Shown here in pieces: positions 4,807-32,233 of a stretch of DNA of 32,233 nucleotides. This stretch comes from Erysipelotrichaceae bacterium (GTDB lineage Bacteria; Bacillota_I; Bacilli_A; Erysipelotrichales; Coprobacillaceae), in the NCBI GenBank assembly GCA_017633115.1, contig JAGBPZ010000145.1:1-32233 (forward strand), written 5' to 3'. How positions within the stretch are numbered: the stretch's first letter is position 1; each line of letters begins with the position of its first letter. The notes under the pieces were generated by a model. It saw nothing but the letters and a program-made list of their open reading frames with translations, was not told where the DNA came from and did not search any database. The translations under genes and the position numbers were made by a program.

Positions 4807-6477
4807 ATGTTAACAGATGTAGAAATTGCTCAGAGTACAGTTATGGAGCCTATTAAGGCTATCGCTGAAAGAATTGGATTAGATGAAGATGATTTAGAAC
4901 TTTATGGTAAATATAAAGCTAAAATTTCATTAGAAACAATCAATCGTTTAAAAGATAATGACAATGGTAAACTTGTTTTAGTGACTGCAATCAACCCAAC
5001 ACCTGCAGGTGAAGGTAAAACAACAACTATGATTGGTTTATCTCAGGCATTAAATAAACTTGGTAAAAAATCAATCGTTGCAATGCGTGAACCTAGCTTA
5101 GGTCCATGTTTTGGTATTAAAGGTGGCGCAGCTGGTGGCGGTTATGCTCAGGTTGTTCCTATGGAAGACATCAACCTTCATTTCACTGGTGATATTCATG
5201 CCATCACAACGGCTAATAACTTAATTGCAGCAATGCTTGATAATTCAATTCAGCAGGGCAATCCATTAGATATAGATACAAGACAGATCGTTTGGAAACG
5301 TTGTGTAGACTTAAATGACCGTGCTTTAAGACATATCGTTGTTGGTTTAGGCGGACGTTTAAATGGTGTACCAAGAGAAGACGGTTTTGATATTTCAGTC
5401 GCAAGTGAAGTTATGGCTATCTTATGCTTAGCTACTTCATTAGAAGACTTAAAAGCTAGAGCAGGTCGTATGATTGTTGCCTATACAAATAGTGGTGAAG
5501 CTGTTACTGTTGATGATATCAAAGCAACTGGTGCTGTCACATTATTATTAAAAGACGCTATCAAACCTAATCTTGTTCAGACATTAGATCATACTCCAGT
5601 CTTTGTTCATGGTGGTCCATTTGCAAATATTGCTCATGGCTGTAACTCAGTTATGGCTACTGAATTAGCAATGAAATTAGGTGACTATGCAATTACTGAA
5701 GCAGGTTTCGGTGCTGACCTTGGTGCAGAAAAGTTCTTAGATATCAAATGTCGTCAGGCTGGTTTAAAACCTGATGCCGTTGTAATCGTTGCTACTGTAC
5801 GTGCGTTAAAGATGCATGGTGGTGTTGATAAGAAAAATCTTGCTGAAGAAAATCTTGATGCCTTAAAGAAGGGTGTTGCTAACTTAACTAAGCATATTGA
5901 AAACATCCATAAATATGGCTTACCTACAGTTATCGCAATCAATGCTTTCCCAACTGATACAGATGCTGAATTACAGTTATTGAAAACTGTTTGTGAAGAA
6001 ATGGGCGCAGAAGTTGCCATTTCTGAAGTATGGGCTAAAGGTGCTGATGGTGGTATCGAAATGGCAGAAAAATTATTACACGTATTAGAAACAACTGAAT
6101 CTCATTTCAAACCAATCTATGAATTAGATCAGCCTATTGTTAACAAATTACGTGCTATCGCACAGGAAATCTATGGTGCTGATGATGTTATCATCACTAA
6201 GAAAGTTGCTAACAAGATTAAAAAATATACAGCTCAGGGTCTTGATAATTTACCAATCTGTATTGCTAAAACTCAGTACTCATTATCAGATGATCCTACA
6301 TTACTTGGTCGTCCAACAGATTTCAGTGTTGAAATCAACGATTTGATTCCTAACACTGGTGCTGGCTTCTTAGTTGCGATTGCAGGCAGCATTATGCGTA
6401 TGCCTGGCCTTCCAAGAGTACCAGCTGCTAATGGCATGGACATTGACGAAAACGGCAAAATCGTTGGCTTATTCTAA
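4807..6477 (+). CDS. fhs: Formate-tetrahydrofolate ligase
   Basis: This enzyme condenses formate, ATP and THF into 10-formyl-THF, the formyl donor for PurN and AICAR formyltransferase. The N-terminal region has the P-loop [10 protein letters not shown]; the long conserved FTHFS body follows, including [23 protein letters not shown]-type sequence and the C-terminal [11 protein letters not shown] chose the ATG at 4807 (MLTDVEIAQ) because it follows aaaggaaag and gives 556 residues, the usual family length. An in-frame GTG at 4759 would add 16 residues but lies almost at the riboswitch T-run without a good ribosome site. It is the first gene of the purine operon and directly under the ZTP riboswitch. 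Codon bias suggests high expression. Confidence 0.97.
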
Positions 6478-8749: not shown

Positions 8750-9333
8750 ATATTGCAGTTTGTATTTCTGGCGGTGGTACTGATCTGCAGTCAATCATTG
8801 ATGCAGTAGAAGCTGGAGAAATCAATGGTACAATCAAACTCGTCATCTCAAACCGTAAAAAGGCATATGGCCTTGAACGTGCAAGACTTCATGGCATTAA
8901 GGCAGAAGTCATCAGGGATGAAGATTTGATCATCAAGCGTATGGAAGAAGAACAAATTGATTTGATCGTTCTTGCAGGTTATCTTGCCATTGTTTCCGAA
9001 AAATTAATCAATCGCTATGAAAACAGAATAATTAATATCCATCCATCATTGATTCCATCATTTTGTGGACCTGGTTATTATGGTATGCATGTTCATAATG
9101 AGGTCTATAAAAGAGGTGTCAGAGTATCAGGTTGTACAGTTCATTTTGTCACCGCTGATGTTGATGGTGGTCCAATTATCTTACAAAAAGCAGTTGATAT
9201 TACAGATGTTAAATCACCTGAAGAAATTCAGGAACGTGTTTTAGTAGAAGAACATAAATTATTACCAGAAGCAGTTAAATTATTCTGCGATGGTCGTTTA
9301 AAAGTCATAAATGAAAGGGTCGAAATATTATGA
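8743..9333 (+). CDS. purN: Phosphoribosylglycinamide formyltransferase PurN
   Basis: PurN transfers a formyl group from 10-formyl-THF to GAR. The 196-residue length fits. Family marks are the N-terminal phosphate loop SGGGTDLQ, the catalytic Asn-His pair in NIHPSLIP, and the catalytic Asp in the HFVTADVDGGPII segment. The ATG follows aaaggagtcg inside the end of purM, and the stop overlaps the purH' start as ATGA. The formyl donor is supplied by fhs at the head of the operon. Confidence 0.97.
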   Translation: MLNIAVCISGGGTDLQSIIDAVEAGEINGTIKLVISNRKKAYGLERARLHGIKAEVIRDEDLIIKRMEEEQIDLIVLAGYLAIVSEKLINRYENRIINIHPSLIPSFCGPGYYGMHVHNEVYKRGVRVSGCTVHFVTADVDGGPIILQKAVDITDVKSPEEIQERVLVEEHKLLPEAVKLFCDGRLKVINERVEIL

Positions 9334-9908
9334 AAAGAGCTTTAATTTCTTTAACTGATAAATCAGGTATCATCCCATTTGCTAAAGAATTAGAAACATT
9401 AGGTTTTGAAATCGTTTCTACAGGCGGTACATTAAAAGTCTTAAAAGAAGGTGGCGTTAATGTCATCGCGATTGATGATGTCACTGGTTTCCCTGAAATC
9501 CTTGATGGTCGTGTTAAAACATTACATCCAAAGGTTCATGGTGGTTTACTCTATCGCCGTGATGATCCAAATCATGTTGCAACAATCAAAGAAATGGAAA
9601 TTACTCCAATTGATTTAGTTTGCTGTAACTTATATGCTTTTGACAAAGCATTAGAAGCAGGCTTACCAATTCCTGATATGGTTGAAAATATTGACATTGG
9701 TGGTCCATCAATGATCAGAAGTTCAGCTAAAAACTTTAAAGACGTATTAGTTGTCACTGATCCAGCTGATTATGACAGCGTCATCGATGCTTTAAAGAAC
9801 GGTACAGATACATTTGAATTCCGTATGAATCTTGCTTACAAGGCATTCAGCCTCACTGCAAGCTACGATACAATGATTTCAAACTGGTTTGCTACATTAG
9901 TTAAATAA
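9330..9908 (+). CDS. purH: Stand-alone IMP cyclohydrolase (PurH N-terminal domain only)
   Basis: The 192 residues match the MGS-like IMP cyclohydrolase domain of bifunctional PurH: ALISLTDKSGI at the start, STGGTLKVL, VTGFPEILDGRVKTLHPKVHGG, NLYAF, and ENIDIGGPSMIRSSAKN. It should convert FAICAR to IMP. The chain ends cleanly at the domain boundary (SNWFATLVK, then TAA); the AICAR formyltransferase domain of about 300 residues is absent, and the next 64 nt do not encode it. Some Clostridia are known to carry the two activities as separate genes, so the formyltransferase is expected elsewhere in the genome. It overlaps purN by four bases and is followed by a perfect hairpin. Confidence 0.93.
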   Translation: MKRALISLTDKSGIIPFAKELETLGFEIVSTGGTLKVLKEGGVNVIAIDDVTGFPEILDGRVKTLHPKVHGGLLYRRDDPNHVATIKEMEITPIDLVCCNLYAFDKALEAGLPIPDMVENIDIGGPSMIRSSAKNFKDVLVVTDPADYDSVIDALKNGTDTFEFRMNLAYKAFSLTASYDTMISNWFATLVK

Positions 9909-19143: not shown

Positions 19144-21270
19144 ATGAAAGACAAAATTGGAAAATATGCCTCGATTGCAGCTAATTATGTATCTGACTAT
19201 CGAACATATGTGCCTGCTTTTTCGGGAGCCGCTTTATCATTCTTTTTACTCGTATTAATTGTACCAGCAACTACGATCATTGCTTTAACAGCATCGATTT
19301 TCAATGTTGATCTAAGTATTCTCACAACTGTACTTCAGGAATACTTAGGTGAGTTTGCTTCGATTGTAACAAGCGTTCTTGAAAATGCCTCGTTTTCATT
19401 CAGTTCGGTTGTCATCTTAGCCATCTCAATTTATGCGATTTCTCGTGCAGTTGGGATGATTTATCAAATTTCTAAGAGAATGTTCCCAACTGATAAGTAC
19501 AACAATGAAAATATCATCTTCTATTATGTCTATGTTATTTCGGTTACAGTTGTTCTCTTAGCGATGTTTTCAACGATGATCGTTGTTATTGGTTTAGGTC
19601 CAATTGCCCGTGTTTTCAACATTTTCTATGGCTATATTGTATTTAGAGTTGTCTTGTTTGCGATTATTGCGTTCTTCTTTTTCTTCGTTCTTTATAAGAT
19701 TATTCCAAGAACAACTATTTATGCAGAAGACATTGCGCGTGGTGCGTTGTTTACGACAATTGGTTTAGGTGGATTCTATATCTTTGTCATGATTTATTTC
19801 CATTTTGCGAATTTCTCTAACGTTTATGGGCCACTTGCATCTTTGATCCTTATTTTATTCGTCTTTAACTGGGGTTCAGAAATCTTCTATATTGGTATGT
19901 ATGTCATTCATCTACGTGTGTTAATGCGTAGTGAAAAACGAACACAGGTAGTGACGATTAGAGATATCACTGCCAGAGGTGTTGGTATAACTCGTGTCTT
20001 TGGTAAAAGATGTATGGTACCAAATGCCTTCCCAGGTGAAGAAGTTGAAATTCATGTGGATAAAGATAGAGGCCGTGTATTAAAAGCTCATGTCACACGT
20101 GTATTGACACGTTCTGAAAAGCGTACTCATGCTGAATGCGGTCAGGCAGAAAAGTGTAATGGCTGTTCATTACAGTTTATGAAGTATTATGATCAGATTG
20201 AATTCAAACAGCGTTTAGTTAAAGAATCTATCGCAAAAAATACAAATTTCCGATATGACGATGACGTAGTTATGCCAGTCATGCCTGCTAATGATATCTT
20301 AGGTTATCAGCAGTATGCTGCATTTCCAATTTTTGGCTATTTTGACAAAGTCTATATCGGAATTCCAGACAAAAAAGGCGATAACCACATCTACAAGAGT
20401 AACTGTCCATTACAGGACCGTATGATCAATCGTGTCATGACGCAAATCGAATTCATATTCAACTATTATGATTGTCATGCTTATGATCGTAAAACGAAAA
20501 ATGGCCTTCGCTATTTAATTGTCAAAAAGATTGAAGAAGATATTCATGTCATCATTGTGACAGGCGCAGATGGGGTTCCAGAAAAAGCTCTTAAGGAAAT
20601 TGGTGATATTGATGAAATCGATGGCTTATTTATCAGTATCAATACCGCTCGTAATCCATTGAACTATGAGGACAAGATTCAGAAGATCTATGGTGAAGAT
20701 TATCTACGTTATCACTACCAGGGCGATGAATATATTCTTTCTGCAGGTAGTTATGTCTTCATTTCTCCAGAGATGGAAGATAATACGATTCAGCTTCTCA
20801 AAGATATGCTTAATCCTGAAGACCGTGTACTGTCAGCTTATTGTAAGTCAGGTATTCTTGAAATGCAGTTGCTGAATGAAAAAATTGTCGCTATCGATGA
20901 TTTGAAATGTAACATTGAAGATGCGGCCAATAATGCGAAACGCCTTGGTAAAGATAATATTCAGTTCATTTGTAAAAATGTTGAAGGTGAAATCGTTAAT
21001 CAGCTGCAACATGGCAATTTCGATTCCATTATTCTTCATTTACGTGACCGTATTATCACGATGGGTACTTTACAGGCATTATTCCAGAGTGAAAGCATAA
21101 AGAATATTTATTTCATCAGTGATGACCCAAGTATCTTTATGCAGTCAATGAAATCAGCCGATTTCTCTTTGAAACGTCTCGATGCGTTTATTCTTGAAAT
21201 CGTTTGGTGTGTTGATAAAGAACCATATACATCACGTGTTGAAACATTATTCCATTTCTATAAAGCATAA
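19144..21270 (+). CDS. Fusion of a YihY/BrkB membrane domain with a degenerate TrmA/RlmD-type RNA methyltransferase
   Basis: The 708-residue frame is uninterrupted. Residues 1-265 look like the YihY/BrkB family, with about six hydrophobic segments (near 25-50, 85-110, 124-152, 158-187, 198-222 and 227-255). Residues 269-318 are a TRAM RNA-binding domain (VGITRVFGKRCMVPNAFPGEEVEIHV). Fe-S cysteines of the TrmA/RlmD family are present at C332, C338, C341 and C421. The catalytic part is degenerate: the FFQvN motif is replaced around 536-540, the SAM loop reads LSAYCKSGILE (563-573), DPPR is replaced by HLRDR (632-636), and the nucleophile Cys of SCNP is D660 in SDDP. A Glu corresponding to the general base may remain in RVETL. 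RVLxRSEKRTx occurs at 258-268 and again at 319-329, flanking the TRAM domain. It follows the CNNM gene by 9 nt and ends before a terminator. Methylation activity is unlikely; an Fe-S, RNA-binding, membrane-anchored role is inference. Confidence 0.85.
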   Translation: MKDKIGKYASIAANYVSDYRTYVPAFSGAALSFFLLVLIVPATTIIALTASIFNVDLSILTTVLQEYLGEFASIVTSVLENASFSFSSVVILAISIYAISRAVGMIYQISKRMFPTDKYNNENIIFYYVYVISVTVVLLAMFSTMIVVIGLGPIARVFNIFYGYIVFRVVLFAIIAFFFFFVLYKIIPRTTIYAEDIARGALFTTIGLGGFYIFVMIYFHFANFSNVYGPLASLILILFVFNWGSEIFYIGMYVIHLRVLMRSEKRTQVVTIRDITARGVGITRVFGKRCMVPNAFPGEEVEIHVDKDRGRVLKAHVTRVLTRSEKRTHAECGQAEKCNGCSLQFMKYYDQIEFKQRLVKESIAKNTNFRYDDDVVMPVMPANDILGYQQYAAFPIFGYFDKVYIGIPDKKGDNHIYKSNCPLQDRMINRVMTQIEFIFNYYDCHAYDRKTKNGLRYLIVKKIEEDIHVIIVTGADGVPEKALKEIGDIDEIDGLFISINTARNPLNYEDKIQKIYGEDYLRYHYQGDEYILSAGSYVFISPEMEDNTIQLLKDMLNPEDRVLSAYCKSGILEMQLLNEKIVAIDDLKCNIEDAANNAKRLGKDNIQFICKNVEGEIVNQLQHGNFDSIILHLRDRIITMGTLQALFQSESIKNIYFISDDPSIFMQSMKSADFSLKRLDAFILEIVWCVDKEPYTSRVETLFHFYKA

Positions 21271-21371: not shown

Positions 21372-22694
21372 ATGAGATTTGAAACAATGACGATTAAACG
21401 TGTAGGTATTAATGGTGAAGGTATTGGCTATGTTCACAATAAAATTTGTTTTGTGAAAAATGCTTTACCTCTTGAAGAAGTAGACGTCAAAATCGTCAAA
21501 GAAGAACGCCGTTTTATGATTGGCGAAGTTAAAACAATTAAGAAGAAATCATCAATGAGACAAAAATCTCCATGCCGTCAGTTTCCGGCTTGTGGTGGTT
21601 GCGCTTTATTGCATATGAATTATGCAGATCAGTTAAATTTTAAATTGGACATTTTAAAAGAAACCTTGGAAAAATATGCGCCATATGATTTAAGTGAAGT
21701 TCACTTCTATCCAGTGCAGGGGATGGAGTCTAACCGCCATTATCGTCAACAGATTGCCTTACCAGTTACTTATGATAAAGGCAAATTGAGAGTAGGCATT
21801 TATCAACGTGAGAGTAAGATTCTGACATACATGGATCATTGTGTCATGCAGGACCGCGTGATCAACGATGCAATTGTGAAGATTGAAGAAATCCTCAACA
21901 AGTATCATTGTCATGATTACAACGATAAGTTTAAAAAAGGTATTCGATTCCTGATTATCCGCAAAGTCAGTGATGAATTACAAGTCATCTTTGTCACGGG
22001 TACTGATGGTATTGATAAGAAAGCAACACATGAAATGACTAAGATCGATGCCGTTAAAGGTTTATTCTATACAGTCAATACGACCAGACATCAAGATTTT
22101 GCCTTACAGGGTTATAAACGCATTTATGGCACGCCTTATTTAAGCTATGACTATAATGGTCATACTTATACTTTCTCCGTTAAAACCGATTTAATTGAGA
22201 ATACGGATGCTTTTGATGCTGAAGTTAAACTTTTACGAGAACGTATTGCGAAAGAAGATAAAGTTTTATCAATCAATTGTGGTAATGCGATTGTGGAATG
22301 TGAACTTGATCAAGAAATAGTCGCTATTGATGAATCTAAAGAAAACACTGATTCAGCCGAAAAGAATATTGAAAAGAATGGCTTTGAACATATTCGTGTT
22401 ATTCATGGTAAAGTGAAAGACATTGCCGCTTCGCAAATGCGTCATCACAAATATGACACCGTCATTATTCGTCTTAAACGCGATCAGATTAATGGTGATC
22501 TCGTAGAGTCACTTTACAAAGGACATGTACAAAAAGTCATACTCATCAGTGATAATGTCAGTTCACTCGCAAAAAGCTTAAAAGATGATAATGATTATTT
22601 CGTCAAATACTTTAACTTTGTATCTGCTGATGCAATTGACCATGCACCACATTCTGCACGTGCCAATTATATTCTGACATTAGAAAGAAAGTAG
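21372..22694 (+). CDS. TrmA/RlmD-family protein lacking catalytic residues (pseudo-methyltransferase)
   Basis: At 440 residues it has the full RlmCD/TrmA layout. A TRAM domain lies at 1-58 (GINGEGIGYVHNKICFVKNALPLEEVDVKI by family fit). Fe-S cysteines are C68, C74, C77 and C157. The catalytic motifs are lost: the SFFQvN segment is KTDLIENT (271-278), the SAM loop reads LSINCGNAIVE (299-309), DPPRKG becomes RLKRDQ (367-372), and the nucleophile position in SCNP is D394 in SDNV. The C-terminal PHxxHVE motif reads PHSARAN, so the general-base Glu is also gone. The Cys-to-Asp change matches the upstream fusion protein, so the two look like diverged duplicates. It is preceded by ttaaggaggattg and followed 7 nt later by rmuC. 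Confidence 0.85.
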   Translation: MRFETMTIKRVGINGEGIGYVHNKICFVKNALPLEEVDVKIVKEERRFMIGEVKTIKKKSSMRQKSPCRQFPACGGCALLHMNYADQLNFKLDILKETLEKYAPYDLSEVHFYPVQGMESNRHYRQQIALPVTYDKGKLRVGIYQRESKILTYMDHCVMQDRVINDAIVKIEEILNKYHCHDYNDKFKKGIRFLIIRKVSDELQVIFVTGTDGIDKKATHEMTKIDAVKGLFYTVNTTRHQDFALQGYKRIYGTPYLSYDYNGHTYTFSVKTDLIENTDAFDAEVKLLRERIAKEDKVLSINCGNAIVECELDQEIVAIDESKENTDSAEKNIEKNGFEHIRVIHGKVKDIAASQMRHHKYDTVIIRLKRDQINGDLVESLYKGHVQKVILISDNVSSLAKSLKDDNDYFVKYFNFVSADAIDHAPHSARANYILTLERK

Positions 22695-27277: not shown

Positions 27278-28876
27278 ATGAAAAAGATTGTGAACATACT
27301 ATTTTCTAAACGAATTTTAGCCGTTGTACAAATTATCTTAGGTATTGTGGCTATTATGATCCTGGCTCAGTCAGAATTAGTGCCTGTCAAGTATCTTATT
27401 GGTGCAGGTCTCATTTTACTTCTATTGGATGTCATTTTTTACATCACACAGATTCAGGGATCACTCGTTATTAGAGGAAAACGTATAACCTTTAAAAGAC
27501 CAGTCAATATTATTTCAAAAGTATTGCAGGTTGGTTTGTGTCTTGCTTTGATCTATGGTTGTATTTCAGTCGATGAAGGTACATCTGTCATCGAAGAAAT
27601 TGCCAGTGAACTTGAAGATAATACGATTGAATATAGCGTTGTTGTTTTAGCATCAAGCAAAGTCAAAAAGGCTGTTGATTTAGAAGGTAAGAGTATTGGT
27701 TATTATTCACCAAAGGATGCCGTTGAAAAACAGCGTTACAACCAGATTGTCACAAAAGTTAACGATGAACTGAAGGAAGAATTAGCACCTACAGTTTATG
27801 ATACGGTTGAAGAAGCAACAAATGCTTTATACGATAAAAAAGTCAAAAGTATTGTCATTCAGGAAGCAATGCGTGATGACTATTGTGAAGTCAAAGAAAA
27901 CTTTGATGATGAAACACGCATTATTAAAAGCAGTGAAATTTTAATTCCAACTGCCAGAGCCAATAAGGCTAAAGTTACTAAAGAACCATTTATCGTCTTC
28001 GTCTCTGGTGAAGATGCTTATGGTAAAAAGATTTCAGCTACATCACGTTCCGACGTTAATATGCTTGCCGTTATTAATCCAGTCACTAAACAGGTCTTAC
28101 TGATCAGTATTCCTCGTGACTATTATGTACCAATCAATGGTATGTATAATAACGACAAATTAACTCACAGCGGTTTACGTGGTATTGATTGTACAGTCAA
28201 AACTGTCCAAGACTTCATGGATATTAAGATTAACTACTATGCAAAAGTTAACTATACTTCATTCATGAAAATCATTGATGCTCTTGGTGGTATTACAATT
28301 GATAACCCATATGGTGAATTTACTTCACGTGTTGGTTTCTTTACTTTCAAAGAAGGTAAGAATAAGTTGACTGCTAAACAGGCACTCGCATTTGTTCGTG
28401 AACGTCATTCTTTCTCTGATGGTGACTTTGCAAGAAACTATAACCAGCAGTTAATGATCAAAGCAGTTTTGAAAAAGGTCACAAGTCCATCTTCTATTTT
28501 GAAGCTTGGTAAGATTTTCAATACTGTAAGAAAAACTGTCAGCACCAATATGTCAGCTAAAGAAATCAAGAGTCTGATCAATATGGAAGTAGATGATATG
28601 GCAAGCTGGGATGTACAGACTTATAGTCTTAAAGGTTATCCAACTCGTGCTAATTCATTTGCGATGGTAACTGCACCTACATCTGCAGGTCTTTCAGTTG
28701 TCATGCCTGATGATACTTCAATTCCAAAAGCACAGAAGTATATCAAGAAAGTGATGAAAGGCAAGATCATTAAGATCAAACATGCTAAGAAACAGATTGA
28801 AGTCTATCCAAATGCCAACGATAAATATATGAAGTATGGCGATAAGAAGACTGATGTTAAAACTGAAAAGAAATAA
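27278..28876 (+). CDS. LytR-CpsA-Psr (LCP) family protein, three-TM form with accessory domain
   Basis: LCP proteins attach teichoic acids or capsule polymers to peptidoglycan outside the membrane. This 532-residue protein has three N-terminal hydrophobic helices (about 12-31, 37-57 and 80-98). An extracellular accessory region follows (about 105-235), including DLEGKSIGYYSPKDAVEKQR-type sequence that resembles a small binding-protein fold. The LCP domain (about 240-460) shows SRSDVNMLAVINPVTKQVLLIS, IPRDYYVP, and LALGGI-like DALGGITIDN and FVRERHSF with the phosphate-binding arginines. A basic Lys-rich tail ends the chain. The three-TM plus accessory layout recalls streptococcal CpsA/Cps2A more than single-TM LytR. 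It is monocistronic, with a terminator right after. Confidence 0.92.
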   Translation: MKKIVNILFSKRILAVVQIILGIVAIMILAQSELVPVKYLIGAGLILLLLDVIFYITQIQGSLVIRGKRITFKRPVNIISKVLQVGLCLALIYGCISVDEGTSVIEEIASELEDNTIEYSVVVLASSKVKKAVDLEGKSIGYYSPKDAVEKQRYNQIVTKVNDELKEELAPTVYDTVEEATNALYDKKVKSIVIQEAMRDDYCEVKENFDDETRIIKSSEILIPTARANKAKVTKEPFIVFVSGEDAYGKKISATSRSDVNMLAVINPVTKQVLLISIPRDYYVPINGMYNNDKLTHSGLRGIDCTVKTVQDFMDIKINYYAKVNYTSFMKIIDALGGITIDNPYGEFTSRVGFFTFKEGKNKLTAKQALAFVRERHSFSDGDFARNYNQQLMIKAVLKKVTSPSSILKLGKIFNTVRKTVSTNMSAKEIKSLINMEVDDMASWDVQTYSLKGYPTRANSFAMVTAPTSAGLSVVMPDDTSIPKAQKYIKKVMKGKIIKIKHAKKQIEVYPNANDKYMKYGDKKTDVKTEKK

Positions 28877-28884
28877 CTTTTAAG

Positions 28885-28907
28885 AGACGGCGTTATGCCG
28901 TCTTTTT
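28885..28907 (+). terminator. Terminator after the LCP gene
   Basis: AGACGGC (28885-28891) and GCCGTCT (28897-28903) form a 7-bp stem with a GTTAT loop and a following T-run. Confidence 0.9.
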
Positions 28908-28926: not shown

Positions 28927-28955
28927 TTGGCATTTGGGATGAAAAGGTCCATAAT
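28927..28955 (+). promoter_or_regulatory. Putative promoter of the small orphan-GH20 pair
   Basis: TTGGCA (28927-28932), a 17-bp spacer and CATAAT (28950-28955) directly follow the LCP terminator and precede the small ORF. This placement argues against the TTG and ATG codons at 28924-28941 as starts. Confidence 0.5.
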
Positions 28956-28962
28956 AAAAATA

Positions 28963-29331
28963 ATGAATATAATTGAAATCAATAGAGATAAATATATGTC
29001 ACAACTTAGAAAACTGACACTGATTAATTTGATGGCCAGTACTCCTTTTCAAACTGTTTTGCAGGCTGCTGCGAAATGGGCAGGTTATTATGATTTTCAA
29101 TTCAATAATTTGAATTATAGAAATCATATTTTAAGGTCTAATGATGAACCAGAGATGTTTTCGTTATACCGTTCAATACATGAGATGAAGTTTTATACTT
29201 CTCTTTATAGTGTTGATCAAAAGTTGATTATGGTCATCGATCCAATGACTGGTTCGTGTTATATTGATGCTCTCTTTTTTTACGATCATATAGATGATTA
29301 TCAAGAAATCACGTACTATTTGCAGTTCTAG
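28963..29331 (+). CDS. Hypothetical small protein
   Basis: I do not recognise this protein. Starts at 28963 (MNIIEINRDKYMSQ, 122 aa) and 28996 (MSQLRKLTL, 111 aa) are both possible; neither has a convincing ribosome site, and starts further upstream fall inside the putative promoter. It has a helical N-terminus and many aromatic residues (YYDFQFNNLNY, ALFFYDHIDDYQEITYYLQF). It has no signal peptide. It lies 18 nt before the GH20 gene on the same strand, so they probably share a transcript, but that is its only clue to function. Confidence 0.6.
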   Translation: MNIIEINRDKYMSQLRKLTLINLMASTPFQTVLQAAAKWAGYYDFQFNNLNYRNHILRSNDEPEMFSLYRSIHEMKFYTSLYSVDQKLIMVIDPMTGSCYIDALFFYDHIDDYQEITYYLQF

Positions 29332-29349
29332 CGAAGATGGGGTTAGCTT

Positions 29350-30513
29350 ATGAAAAGTCAAAAGAATCCAAAACGTTTTTTTACCTATGGATATGTCAAT
29401 GAGTTACTAAACAAACACGCAGAAAAGATATCAACTGATGATGAATCAAAGGGAAAGCTTATATCAGGGATGTCACTAGATTGTGCAAGACGTTATTATC
29501 CTGTTCAAACAATCAAGCAGCTTATTGATACTCTAGCTGGCAATCATCACTCTTTCTTGCAATTACATCTCTCAGATGATCAGAATGTAGGTGTTGAATG
29601 TGCTCTTTTAGGACAGACAGTTAAGACATCAGAGTTATTATCTGATGGCAGTTATAGAAATCCACATACAATGAAACAGTTTCTAAGTGCTGCCCAGATC
29701 AAGGATATCATTCAGTATGCAAGAGAAAGAAACGTCGACATTATTCCTGAAATTGATGCTCCTGCACATATGGAAGGATTCTTTACTTTAGCAGAGGCTG
29801 TTTATGGCAGTGATTATGTCAATACCCTTGCTTATTCCCGTCGGGATTATCCTGGTGAGTTAAATATTTCATCACCAAAAGCTATTCATTTTGTAGAACA
29901 ACTTTATGATGAATATGCATCACTATTTAATACTAACCGTTATTTTAATACAGGCCGCTATTTTCATATTGGTTGTGACGAGCATTTTTCCGGGTCAGCA
30001 GCTGATAAAATCTCTTATATCATGAGAATATCATCTTATATGAAAGATAAAGGTTTTAGAGTCCGAATGTGGAATGACCTGTTGACCAAGTCTGATATTT
30101 ATAAGCTTGATAAGAGTATTCAGGTAACATATTGGAGTTGGGATGGTGATGCCCAGGATGAAAATGTCAGGGCAGCGAGACAGGAAGAACGTGCCACAGT
30201 AGCAGATCTTCAGGCGGAAGGTTTAGATATACTCATTTATAATTCTTATTATCTCTACTATGTGCCTTCCCATAGAAATTTCAATCAACATGACATGGAC
30301 TATACTGTTAATGACTTAAGAGAGAACTGGACAGTGAGGAACTGGTATAAAAACAGTGGTTTGTCACTTGAAAGCTTAGAGCATATCATTGGCAGTGCTG
30401 TCTCTTTGTGGAGTGAGGATTCAGGAGGGCTTCCTACCGACAAAATCATTGCCCAGTTCATTAGACACTATCGTGCTATGGAATGGGTCAACAATCGAGA
30501 AGAGATTGAATGA
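29350..30513 (+). CDS. Dispersin B-like GH20 beta-N-acetylhexosaminidase, apparently cytosolic
   Basis: GH20 enzymes release terminal N-acetylhexosamine by substrate-assisted catalysis. This 387-residue protein reads as a catalytic barrel alone. It strongly recalls dispersin B, which cuts the biofilm polymer poly-beta-1,6-GlcNAc. Visible are R47 in LDCARRYYP, LQLHLSDDQN, IIPEIDAPAHM, the catalytic pair D210-E211 in HIGCDEHF, YWSWDGDAQDEN (261-272), YNSYYLYYVP (297-306), and W354 and E356 in SLWSEDS. No signal peptide is visible (the start is MKSQKNPKRFFTYGYVN), so it should stay in the cytosol and act on imported oligosaccharides or muropeptide-derived sugars. That differs from secreted dispersin B. 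Its ribosome site is weak and it follows the small orphan by 18 nt. Confidence 0.88.
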   Translation: MKSQKNPKRFFTYGYVNELLNKHAEKISTDDESKGKLISGMSLDCARRYYPVQTIKQLIDTLAGNHHSFLQLHLSDDQNVGVECALLGQTVKTSELLSDGSYRNPHTMKQFLSAAQIKDIIQYARERNVDIIPEIDAPAHMEGFFTLAEAVYGSDYVNTLAYSRRDYPGELNISSPKAIHFVEQLYDEYASLFNTNRYFNTGRYFHIGCDEHFSGSAADKISYIMRISSYMKDKGFRVRMWNDLLTKSDIYKLDKSIQVTYWSWDGDAQDENVRAARQEERATVADLQAEGLDILIYNSYYLYYVPSHRNFNQHDMDYTVNDLRENWTVRNWYKNSGLSLESLEHIIGSAVSLWSEDSGGLPTDKIIAQFIRHYRAMEWVNNREEIE

Positions 30514-30534
30514 CTATAAAGAAATTGTTATAAT
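30506..30534 (+). promoter_or_regulatory. Promoter of the lipoprotein gene
   Basis: TTGAAT (30506-30511), a 17-bp spacer and a perfect TATAAT (30529-30534). The -35 overlaps the end of the GH20 gene. Confidence 0.8.
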
Positions 30535-31076: not shown

Positions 31077-31106
31077 AGGTTTCGGTGAAAAACCGAAGCC
31101 TTTTTT
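31077..31106 (+). terminator. Terminator after the lipoprotein gene
   Basis: AGGTTTCGGT (31077-31086) pairs over 10 bp (one G-T) with ACCGAAGCCT (31092-31101) around GAAAA, ending in six T. Confidence 0.93.
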
Positions 31107-31398: not shown

Positions 31399-32233
31399 AT
31401 GAATCAATATGTAGAATTAGGAGCTGATAGTTATACAATTTATATCGAAAATGGTTTATTGCATCATGTCGATAAAATTATTGCGCAGGTATATAAAGCA
31501 GGAAAAATTGCCATTATTAGTGATGATAATGTTTTTCCACTTTATGGATCGCTGATTATGGATAAATTATCACCTTTTTATGAAGTGACCGCAATTGTGA
31601 TTCCCCACGGAGAACAATCAAAACGTTTTGATATATTACCGGAGATTTATTCTCAATTAATTGACGCTCATCTAACCCGTACAGATTTAATTATTGCTTT
31701 GGGTGGTGGTGTCATCGGTGATCTTGCAGGATTTGTTGCCAGCAGTTATTTACGTGGCATTAAGTTCATCCAGATTCCAACCAGTCTGCTTGCACAAGTT
31801 GATTCTAGTGTCGGCGGTAAAGTAGCTGTAGATCTGCCTCAGGGTAAAAACCTTGTTGGTGCTTTTAAACATCCATTACAAGTCATTATTGACCCTGATA
31901 CTTTAAAGACCTTGCCACATCGTTATCTGGTTGATGGTATGGGTGAAGTCATCAAATATGGTTGTATTAAGGACCGCAGTCTTTTTGAACAATTAATGAC
32001 CTATAATGGCTATGATGAATTATTAAAAGATATGACATCAATTATTGACAATTGTGTTGATATTAAACGTGATGTTGTTGAAAGAGATTTATATGATTTT
32101 GGCGATCGCTTATGCTTGAACTTTGGACATACGATTGGTCATGCTGTCGAACAGTATTATCATTATGGCACCTATTCTCATGGGGAAGCTGTTGCCATTG
32201 GTATGGTTGCTATCACACGTCTATCAGAAGCAA
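31399..32233 (+). CDS. aroB: 3-Dehydroquinate synthase AroB, 3' end missing
   Basis: AroB converts DAHP to 3-dehydroquinate, the second step of the shikimate pathway, using NAD and a divalent metal. The frame is open to the right edge, giving the first 278 residues of about 350. Visible motifs are PHGEQSKRF, LGGGVIGDLAGFVASSYLRG for NAD binding, IPTSLLAQVDSSVGGK, GKNLVGAF, and the metal-binding E183 (GEVIKYG), H244 or H248 (NFGHTIGHAVE) and H261 (SHGEAVAIGM). The ATG follows aagaaagga, which overlaps the end of a small upstream frame. Further aro genes probably follow outside the window. Confidence 0.96.
   Translation, partial: MNQYVELGADSYTIYIENGLLHHVDKIIAQVYKAGKIAIISDDNVFPLYGSLIMDKLSPFYEVTAIVIPHGEQSKRFDILPEIYSQLIDAHLTRTDLIIALGGGVIGDLAGFVASSYLRGIKFIQIPTSLLAQVDSSVGGKVAVDLPQGKNLVGAFKHPLQVIIDPDTLKTLPHRYLVDGMGEVIKYGCIKDRSLFEQLMTYNGYDELLKDMTSIIDNCVDIKRDVVERDLYDFGDRLCLNFGHTIGHAVEQYYHYGTYSHGEAVAIGMVAITRLSEA

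Follow-up and report, generated by a model that had tools for sequence, protein, structure and literature searches.

A 32,233-nt stretch of DNA from an Erysipelotrichaceae bacterium (hereafter, the window) carries a gene whose product had been described, from the sequence alone, as a dispersin B-like hexosaminidase without a secretion signal. Dispersins are defined functionally by hydrolysis of beta-1,6-linked poly-GlcNAc (PNAG), a sticky sugar of bacterial biofilms. Since dispersin B (DspB) is secreted, the locus raises the question of where such an enzyme acts and on what. Three options had been offered in the preliminary description: an intracellular substrate, a misplaced start codon or non-classical release.

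The protein belongs to GH20. It matches the Pfam family PF00728 (Glyco_hydro_20) with an E-value of 5.4e-42 and 144.8 bits, above the curated cut-off of 22.3, and the adjoining catalytic Asp-Glu pair is found as D210-E211. In a sequence search of the PDB, DspB (1yht) ranked first (4.8e-66), followed by the dispersins 8qak, 8qb6 and 8qce (1.9e-32 to 7.3e-30); non-dispersin GH20 enzymes reached 7.1e-16 at best. E-values this low exclude chance for the GH20 assignment. A structure was modelled with AlphaFold2 from eight sequences (mean pLDDT 82.4; below 50 at residues 1-34 and 196-201), with the first predicted barrel strand at residues 38-44. Foldseek placed DspB first for this model as well (2.0e-32, TM 0.83/0.93, rmsd 1.9), then five dispersin chains and StrH (1.3e-18).

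The protein shares the GH20 barrel with DspB of Aggregatibacter actinomycetemcomitans and is 36% identical to it over 334 aligned residues. With the DspB numbering anchored on D183/E184, the alignment equates R47 with R27, D210 with D183, E211 with E184, W354 with W330 and E356 with E332. The WDGD segment (residues 264-267) is aligned to YDGD 239-242 of DspB, and the YNSYYLY segment lies at residues 297-303, with NSYYLY kept from DspB. The active-site set named in the preliminary description thus maps to DspB as claimed. All seven catalytic or binding positions are kept (R27, D56, D183, E184, W237, Y278 and E332 in DspB numbers), as are W216, N217, D218, Y236 and W330. The available text of PMC11883664 gives six residues as dispersin-only and eleven more as conserved among dispersins; 13 of these 17 are kept. 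Among the dispersin-only residues (H53, D116, W216, D218, W330, G331) five of six are present, and G331 is replaced by Ser, which is also found in L002, L006, L130 and L131, all of the dispersin group. This six-residue set separates poorly, as the non-dispersins L083, L084, L089 and L134 likewise reach 5/6. Among the eleven further residues, eight are kept and three changed (S64C, A102Q, N271I), S64C being common to all eight proteins of the close group described below. D242 and D245, placed in an anionic groove in the published work as far as available, are kept as D267 and D270. D147 and E248 are aligned to G169 and V273 and are not kept; the accessible parts of PMC11357414 and PMC11883664 tie both to the recognition of partly deacetylated PNAG.

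As a check, the preliminary description had proposed a GH20 phylogeny, with chitobiases or lacto-N-biosidases as the alternative placement. A careful tree of 24 rows and two quick trees of 105 and 106 rows, the latter with several long branches, were compared. The quick trees include GH20 domains from planctomycete, Lokiarchaeota, Bacteroidota and clostridial records. One lacto-N-biosidase and the plasmid hexosaminidase-type GH20 L136 and L137 are represented, chitobiases are not, and a partial Streptomyces hexosaminidase of known structure is present in the 106-row tree only. The protein falls within a dispersin group of 17 rows that a single branch sets apart in both quick trees (17/105 and 17/106, SH-aLRT 98 both times), together with DspB and the characterised dispersins and apart from the lacto-N-biosidase and the other GH20 sampled. 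The same group has 94/98 in the 24-row tree, just below the program's 95/80 mark. As the trees hold no chitobiase row, this half of the comparison relies on the PDB and fold rankings. Fold class, catalytic set and clade are established, and the description as a dispersin B-like hexosaminidase is borne out by sequence, fold, residues and trees.

Relatives in genome contigs were sought by exact peptide patterns, which yielded 196 stretches with 148 relatives, of which 80 were kept; other signal-less members may be missed by this approach. Only seven of these 80 loci (L002-L008) exceed 31% identity to the protein in the best segment. Together with it they form an eight-row group (92/95 in the 24-row tree, SH-aLRT 99 in the quick trees), which DspB adjoins with weak support (65, 105-row tree). 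The sister is L002 from the uncultured Lachnospiraceae bacterium RUG13313 (100/100 in the 24-row tree, SH-aLRT 100 in the quick trees), with 65% identity. The two differ ahead of the first barrel Gly, with 17 residues in L002 versus 39 here; the part of the L002 tblastn match that lies upstream of the ATG and past the stop codon was discounted. A gene for a TIR-domain protein (L002 4750-6834; Sel1 below cut-off, weak ThsB-like PADLOC match) starts 10 bases downstream of the L002 GH20 gene. L003-L008 come from Lachnospiraceae and Eubacterium (L005 and L008 from rumen by record title) and are 40-47% identical to the protein. R27N and D56G occur together in L005, L006, L007 and L008 and suggest an altered -1 subsite in these four; the protein studied here and the remaining rows of the group keep both positions. 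In L006 (Eubacterium oxidoreducens, 4896-5972), the match continues past a TAG, and the C-terminal helix is cut off by this stop. The more distant DispTs3 (8qak), DispTs2 (8qb6) and DispLp (8qce), reported as PNAG-active GH20 enzymes in the available text of PMC11883664, share the tree group, the catalytic pair and the Trp pocket at 26-28% identity.

The main difference from these relatives is the N-terminus. DspB has a signal of 20 aa according to the accessible part of PMC11357414, and native secretion signals of DispTs3, DispTs2 and DispLp were predicted by the authors of PMC11883664, as far as that text is available. Hydropathy was assessed as the best 12-residue Kyte-Doolittle mean among segments starting in the first 45 residues. 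It amounts to 0.71 for the protein studied here and 1.23 for L002, in contrast to 2.60-3.34 in L003-L008, all six of which have a hydrophobic N-terminus. Neither a hydrophobic N-terminal stretch nor a membrane segment was found in the protein by Kyte-Doolittle analysis. Apart from the protein studied here and L002, the cellular proteins of the dispersin clade that were read, ten in number with L003-L008, have a hydrophobic N-terminus (at least 2.56 in nine, 1.51 in L133). GH20 proteins without one do exist elsewhere, namely L083, L084, L089 and L134, yet these lie outside the dispersin group, and L083 matches lacto-N-biosidases best in the PDB. In L083, L084 and L089, which belong to one genus of the same order, the GH20 without such an N-terminus adjoins a second GH20 reading frame.

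The in-frame TAG directly before the ATG rules out an upstream start, so that a check of all upstream starts, as proposed in the preliminary description, yields no usable alternative. No GTG or TTG codon occurs in frame at residues 2-40, and the next in-frame start, the ATG at residue 41, lies inside the first predicted strand. Given the TAG, the lack of an alternative start before this strand and the lack of a hydrophobic stretch, a signal peptide is impossible with this start. A signal hidden in another frame was also rejected, as the hydrophobic runs found at 29189 and 29313 either end in stop codons or lack a preceding ATG, GTG or TTG. The isoelectric point proved uninformative as a hint to the compartment, the signal-bearing L003 being acidic too. 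The L002 gene likewise has an in-frame stop just ahead of its start, and because this nearest relative also lacks a signal, a lone misannotation is excluded. The misplaced start was accordingly rejected as unlikely: the TAG rules it out upstream, the next start falls within the strand and L002 is a second case.

The two signal-less genes differ in GC content (37.6% versus 56.7% in L002). Their 65% protein identity and intact catalytic sets despite this gap argue that the signal-less form is kept under constraint. The state would be either old or have arisen twice, with the active site kept in both cases; a comparison of the DNA upstream of both genes showed nothing shared (local score 20 versus a mean of 17.4 and a maximum of 27 in shuffles). 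The enzyme is probably cytosolic, as judged from its sequence alone, and an intracellular substrate appears the likeliest of the three options.

The features around the GH20 gene are compiled in Table 1.

Table 1 Features at the GH20 locus, in positions of the window
Feature	Position	Strand	Remarks
LCP (LytR-CpsA-Psr) glycopolymer transferase gene	27278..28876	+	left flank
Terminator-like hairpin after LCP gene	28882..28906	+	3 such found, mean of shuffles 1.2
Promoter-like TTGGCA-17-CATAAT	28927..28955	+	10/12; ahead of small ORF
Orphan ORF, 122 aa	28963..29331	+	alternative start ATG 28996, preceded by GAGAT
In-frame TAG directly before GH20 ATG	29344..29346	+	rules out upstream start; sequence reading
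GH20 catalytic domain protein gene, dispersin clade, 387 aa	29350..30513	+	ATG start, no signal peptide
Promoter-like TTGAAT-17-TATAAT	30506-30534		before putative lipoprotein gene
Putative lipoprotein gene, 153 aa	30595..31056	+	by eye: hydrophobic start, then Cys
Terminator-like hairpin	31077-31101		after putative lipoprotein gene
aroB (3-dehydroquinate synthase)	31399..32232	+	right flank, runs off window

The putative lipoprotein gene is probably a separate unit. Promoter-like sites are about as common in shuffled sequences (14 found versus a mean of 12.9). The GH20 gene had been described as paired with an unknown small protein. The adjacency holds, as it starts 18 bases after the 122-aa orphan ORF; a pairing beyond adjacency does not, since tblastn at E 1 gave no counterpart of this ORF at the loci L002-L008. 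Both genes are in the same frame with two TAG between them (29329-29331 and 29344-29346), and a fusion of the two was not seen in L002-L008. The small ORF matches no family in Pfam, NCBIfam or PADLOC and only weakly one in PHROG (0.057). A pattern search of viral contigs and a plasmid search at E 1 were both negative, phage records gave two matches at 0.8, and the best PDB match was a eukaryotic protein at 0.018. Among 184 loci, only L113 gave matches outside the window's own DNA, both of them weak (4.5e-4 and 0.87, tblastn). The best non-self match in 60 genomes (G017, E 0.00138, or 4.5e-4 in the comparison of loci) falls within an ORF of HAD-like appearance on visual inspection and is probably due to chance. 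A single-sequence model was uninformative (mean pLDDT 37.1). A defence role was rejected, since neither the GH20 protein nor its two small neighbours match PADLOC; a phage role was rejected as well, the GH20 protein having no PHROGs match and no relative in viral contigs.

Elsewhere in the window, PurH (9330-9908) has 192 aa and matches roughly residues 1-195 of the bifunctional enzyme (510 aa); no second half is named among the window's ORFs. A 708-aa protein (19144-21270) combines a weak YihY-like N-terminal half with an RlmD-like rRNA methyltransferase half, and a second RlmD-like gene follows (21372-22694), both below the curated cut-off.

The position downstream of a glycopolymer transferase gene is compatible with a cytosolic GH20 of changed substrate, which would trim beta-GlcNAc from a different glycan, whether intracellular or imported, such as chito-oligomers, host glycan fragments or pieces of cell-wall glycopolymer. 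Several dispersin-typical positions differ, and the order also contains non-dispersin GH20 proteins that lack a hydrophobic N-terminus (L083, L084, L089). We regard this reading as quite unlikely: a terminator-like hairpin lies between the LCP gene and the GH20 gene, W241, W262, W354, E356, D267 and D270 are all kept, and the trees place the protein in the dispersin clade.

The gene is rare. At E 1e-24, a relative was found in one of 315 genomes of the order, its own. At 0.001, GH20 matches were obtained in 32 of 98 relatives' genomes, the 31 others being weaker (best 1.1e-22) and of the usual distant kind. Around L002, five of 397 genomes drawn from a larger family matched at 1e-30; they include L002's own genome and G412, which gives the same protein as L007. 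The presence of dnaK, a pur operon and aroB around the GH20 gene on the contig makes contamination of the assembly unlikely. In the related genome G019 (L139), aroB (355.9 bits, cut-off 305) comes directly after an LCP relative. L140, L141 and L143 have a DAHP synthase gene at some distance behind the LCP relative. The comparison with G019, a single genome with 43% identity in a family of proteins with paralogues, suggests that, in the window, an insertion took place between the LCP gene and aroB; loss in G019 instead of gain in the window may also account for the difference. Horizontal gain would be the simplest account of the sporadic occurrence. The codon fit of the GH20 gene is the second lowest of 26 genes, close to several others, and codon usage was dismissed as weak proof of recent transfer.

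No GH20 relatives were found in the viral contigs searched. Annotated records contain distant ones at E 1e-5 (30 phage, 310 plasmid), all below 60% identity and approximately 30% for the best listed. Two staphylococcal plasmids (L132, L133) carry a dispersin-group GH20 gene beside pgaC/icaD or icaADBC, i.e. a PNAG maker and breaker on a mobile element. A 'tail fibre' gene of a Staphylococcus phage (L135 640-2511) ends in a dispersin-group GH20 domain and is a possible PNAG depolymerase.

An accessory gene confined to one genome of the order, with a low though not isolated codon fit and no signal, could also be a decaying or non-functional copy on its way out. This is highly improbable given the open frame of 387 codons, the kept catalytic residues and the second signal-less relative, L002, which is intact as well.

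The genome holds this one GH20 gene, a nagA (333.6 bits, cut-off 225.65) and eight ROK matches, four of them above 100 bits. No GlcNAc-type PTS exceeds the cut-off in the genome, and no transporter is named beside the GH20 gene in the window. PgaC/IcaA is absent above cut-off from the genome (best 64.7 bits versus 422.3) and from six genomes of relatives, with one of 14 control genomes passing; a link to PNAG synthesis was therefore rejected. The lack of a PNAG synthase above cut-off fits a substrate made by others, and thus also an enzyme that reaches the outside after lysis or by non-classical release and disperses the PNAG biofilm of neighbours. The hydrophobic N-termini in the clade and the ica/pgaC neighbours of the two plasmid genes indicate that the ancestral job was probably extracellular. 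We nevertheless consider release unlikely for this protein, as nothing named beside the GH20 gene in the window would serve its release, be it a holin, a phage tail or a dedicated exporter. A phage tail-fibre dispersin does exist in L135, but the gene studied here has no phage-family match and lies among housekeeping genes.

Digestion of imported fragments would best explain why a PNAGase-like enzyme is kept inside a cell that apparently makes no PNAG of its own. The reading we prefer, at slightly less than even confidence, is that a dispersin-clade GH20 beta-N-acetylglucosaminidase was gained horizontally, lost its export signal and now frees GlcNAc from imported beta-1,6-GlcNAc oligomers in the cytosol. 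Neighbouring bacteria would shed short beta-1,6-linked oligomers (PNAG fragments), which the carrier cell would import. In the predicted substrate-assisted catalysis, D210 would orient the 2-acetamido group and E211 act as acid/base, with W241, W262 and W354 forming the pocket and R47 and E356 holding the -1 sugar. GlcNAc released from the non-reducing ends would pass to a ROK-type kinase and then to NagA. What we infer here comprises the activity, the beta-1,6 preference, the import of oligomers, the cytosolic location, the identity of the kinase and the horizontal gain.

Among the papers listed in literature searches, none reports a dispersin without a signal, as judged by titles and the openings of abstracts. 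For an intracellular GH20 precedent, the available text of PMC12791066 was consulted and names other routes (phospho-sugar hydrolase, GH3, secreted GH20). The novelty lies in the signal-less form of a known dispersin-type enzyme. Tentatively, a branch of the dispersins, here seen in two genomes, may have exchanged extracellular biofilm dispersal for intracellular digestion of PNAG fragments. If so, the dispersin scaffold would have been selected for cytosolic work, and the carriers would scavenge PNAG, taking up beta-1,6-GlcNAc oligomers through an importer that awaits discovery. Interest in dispersins centres on secreted enzymes with antibiofilm action; a signal-less lineage with a kept active site suggests that PNAG fragments may also serve as a nutrient, and the gene in the window provides a concrete case for testing such nutrition.
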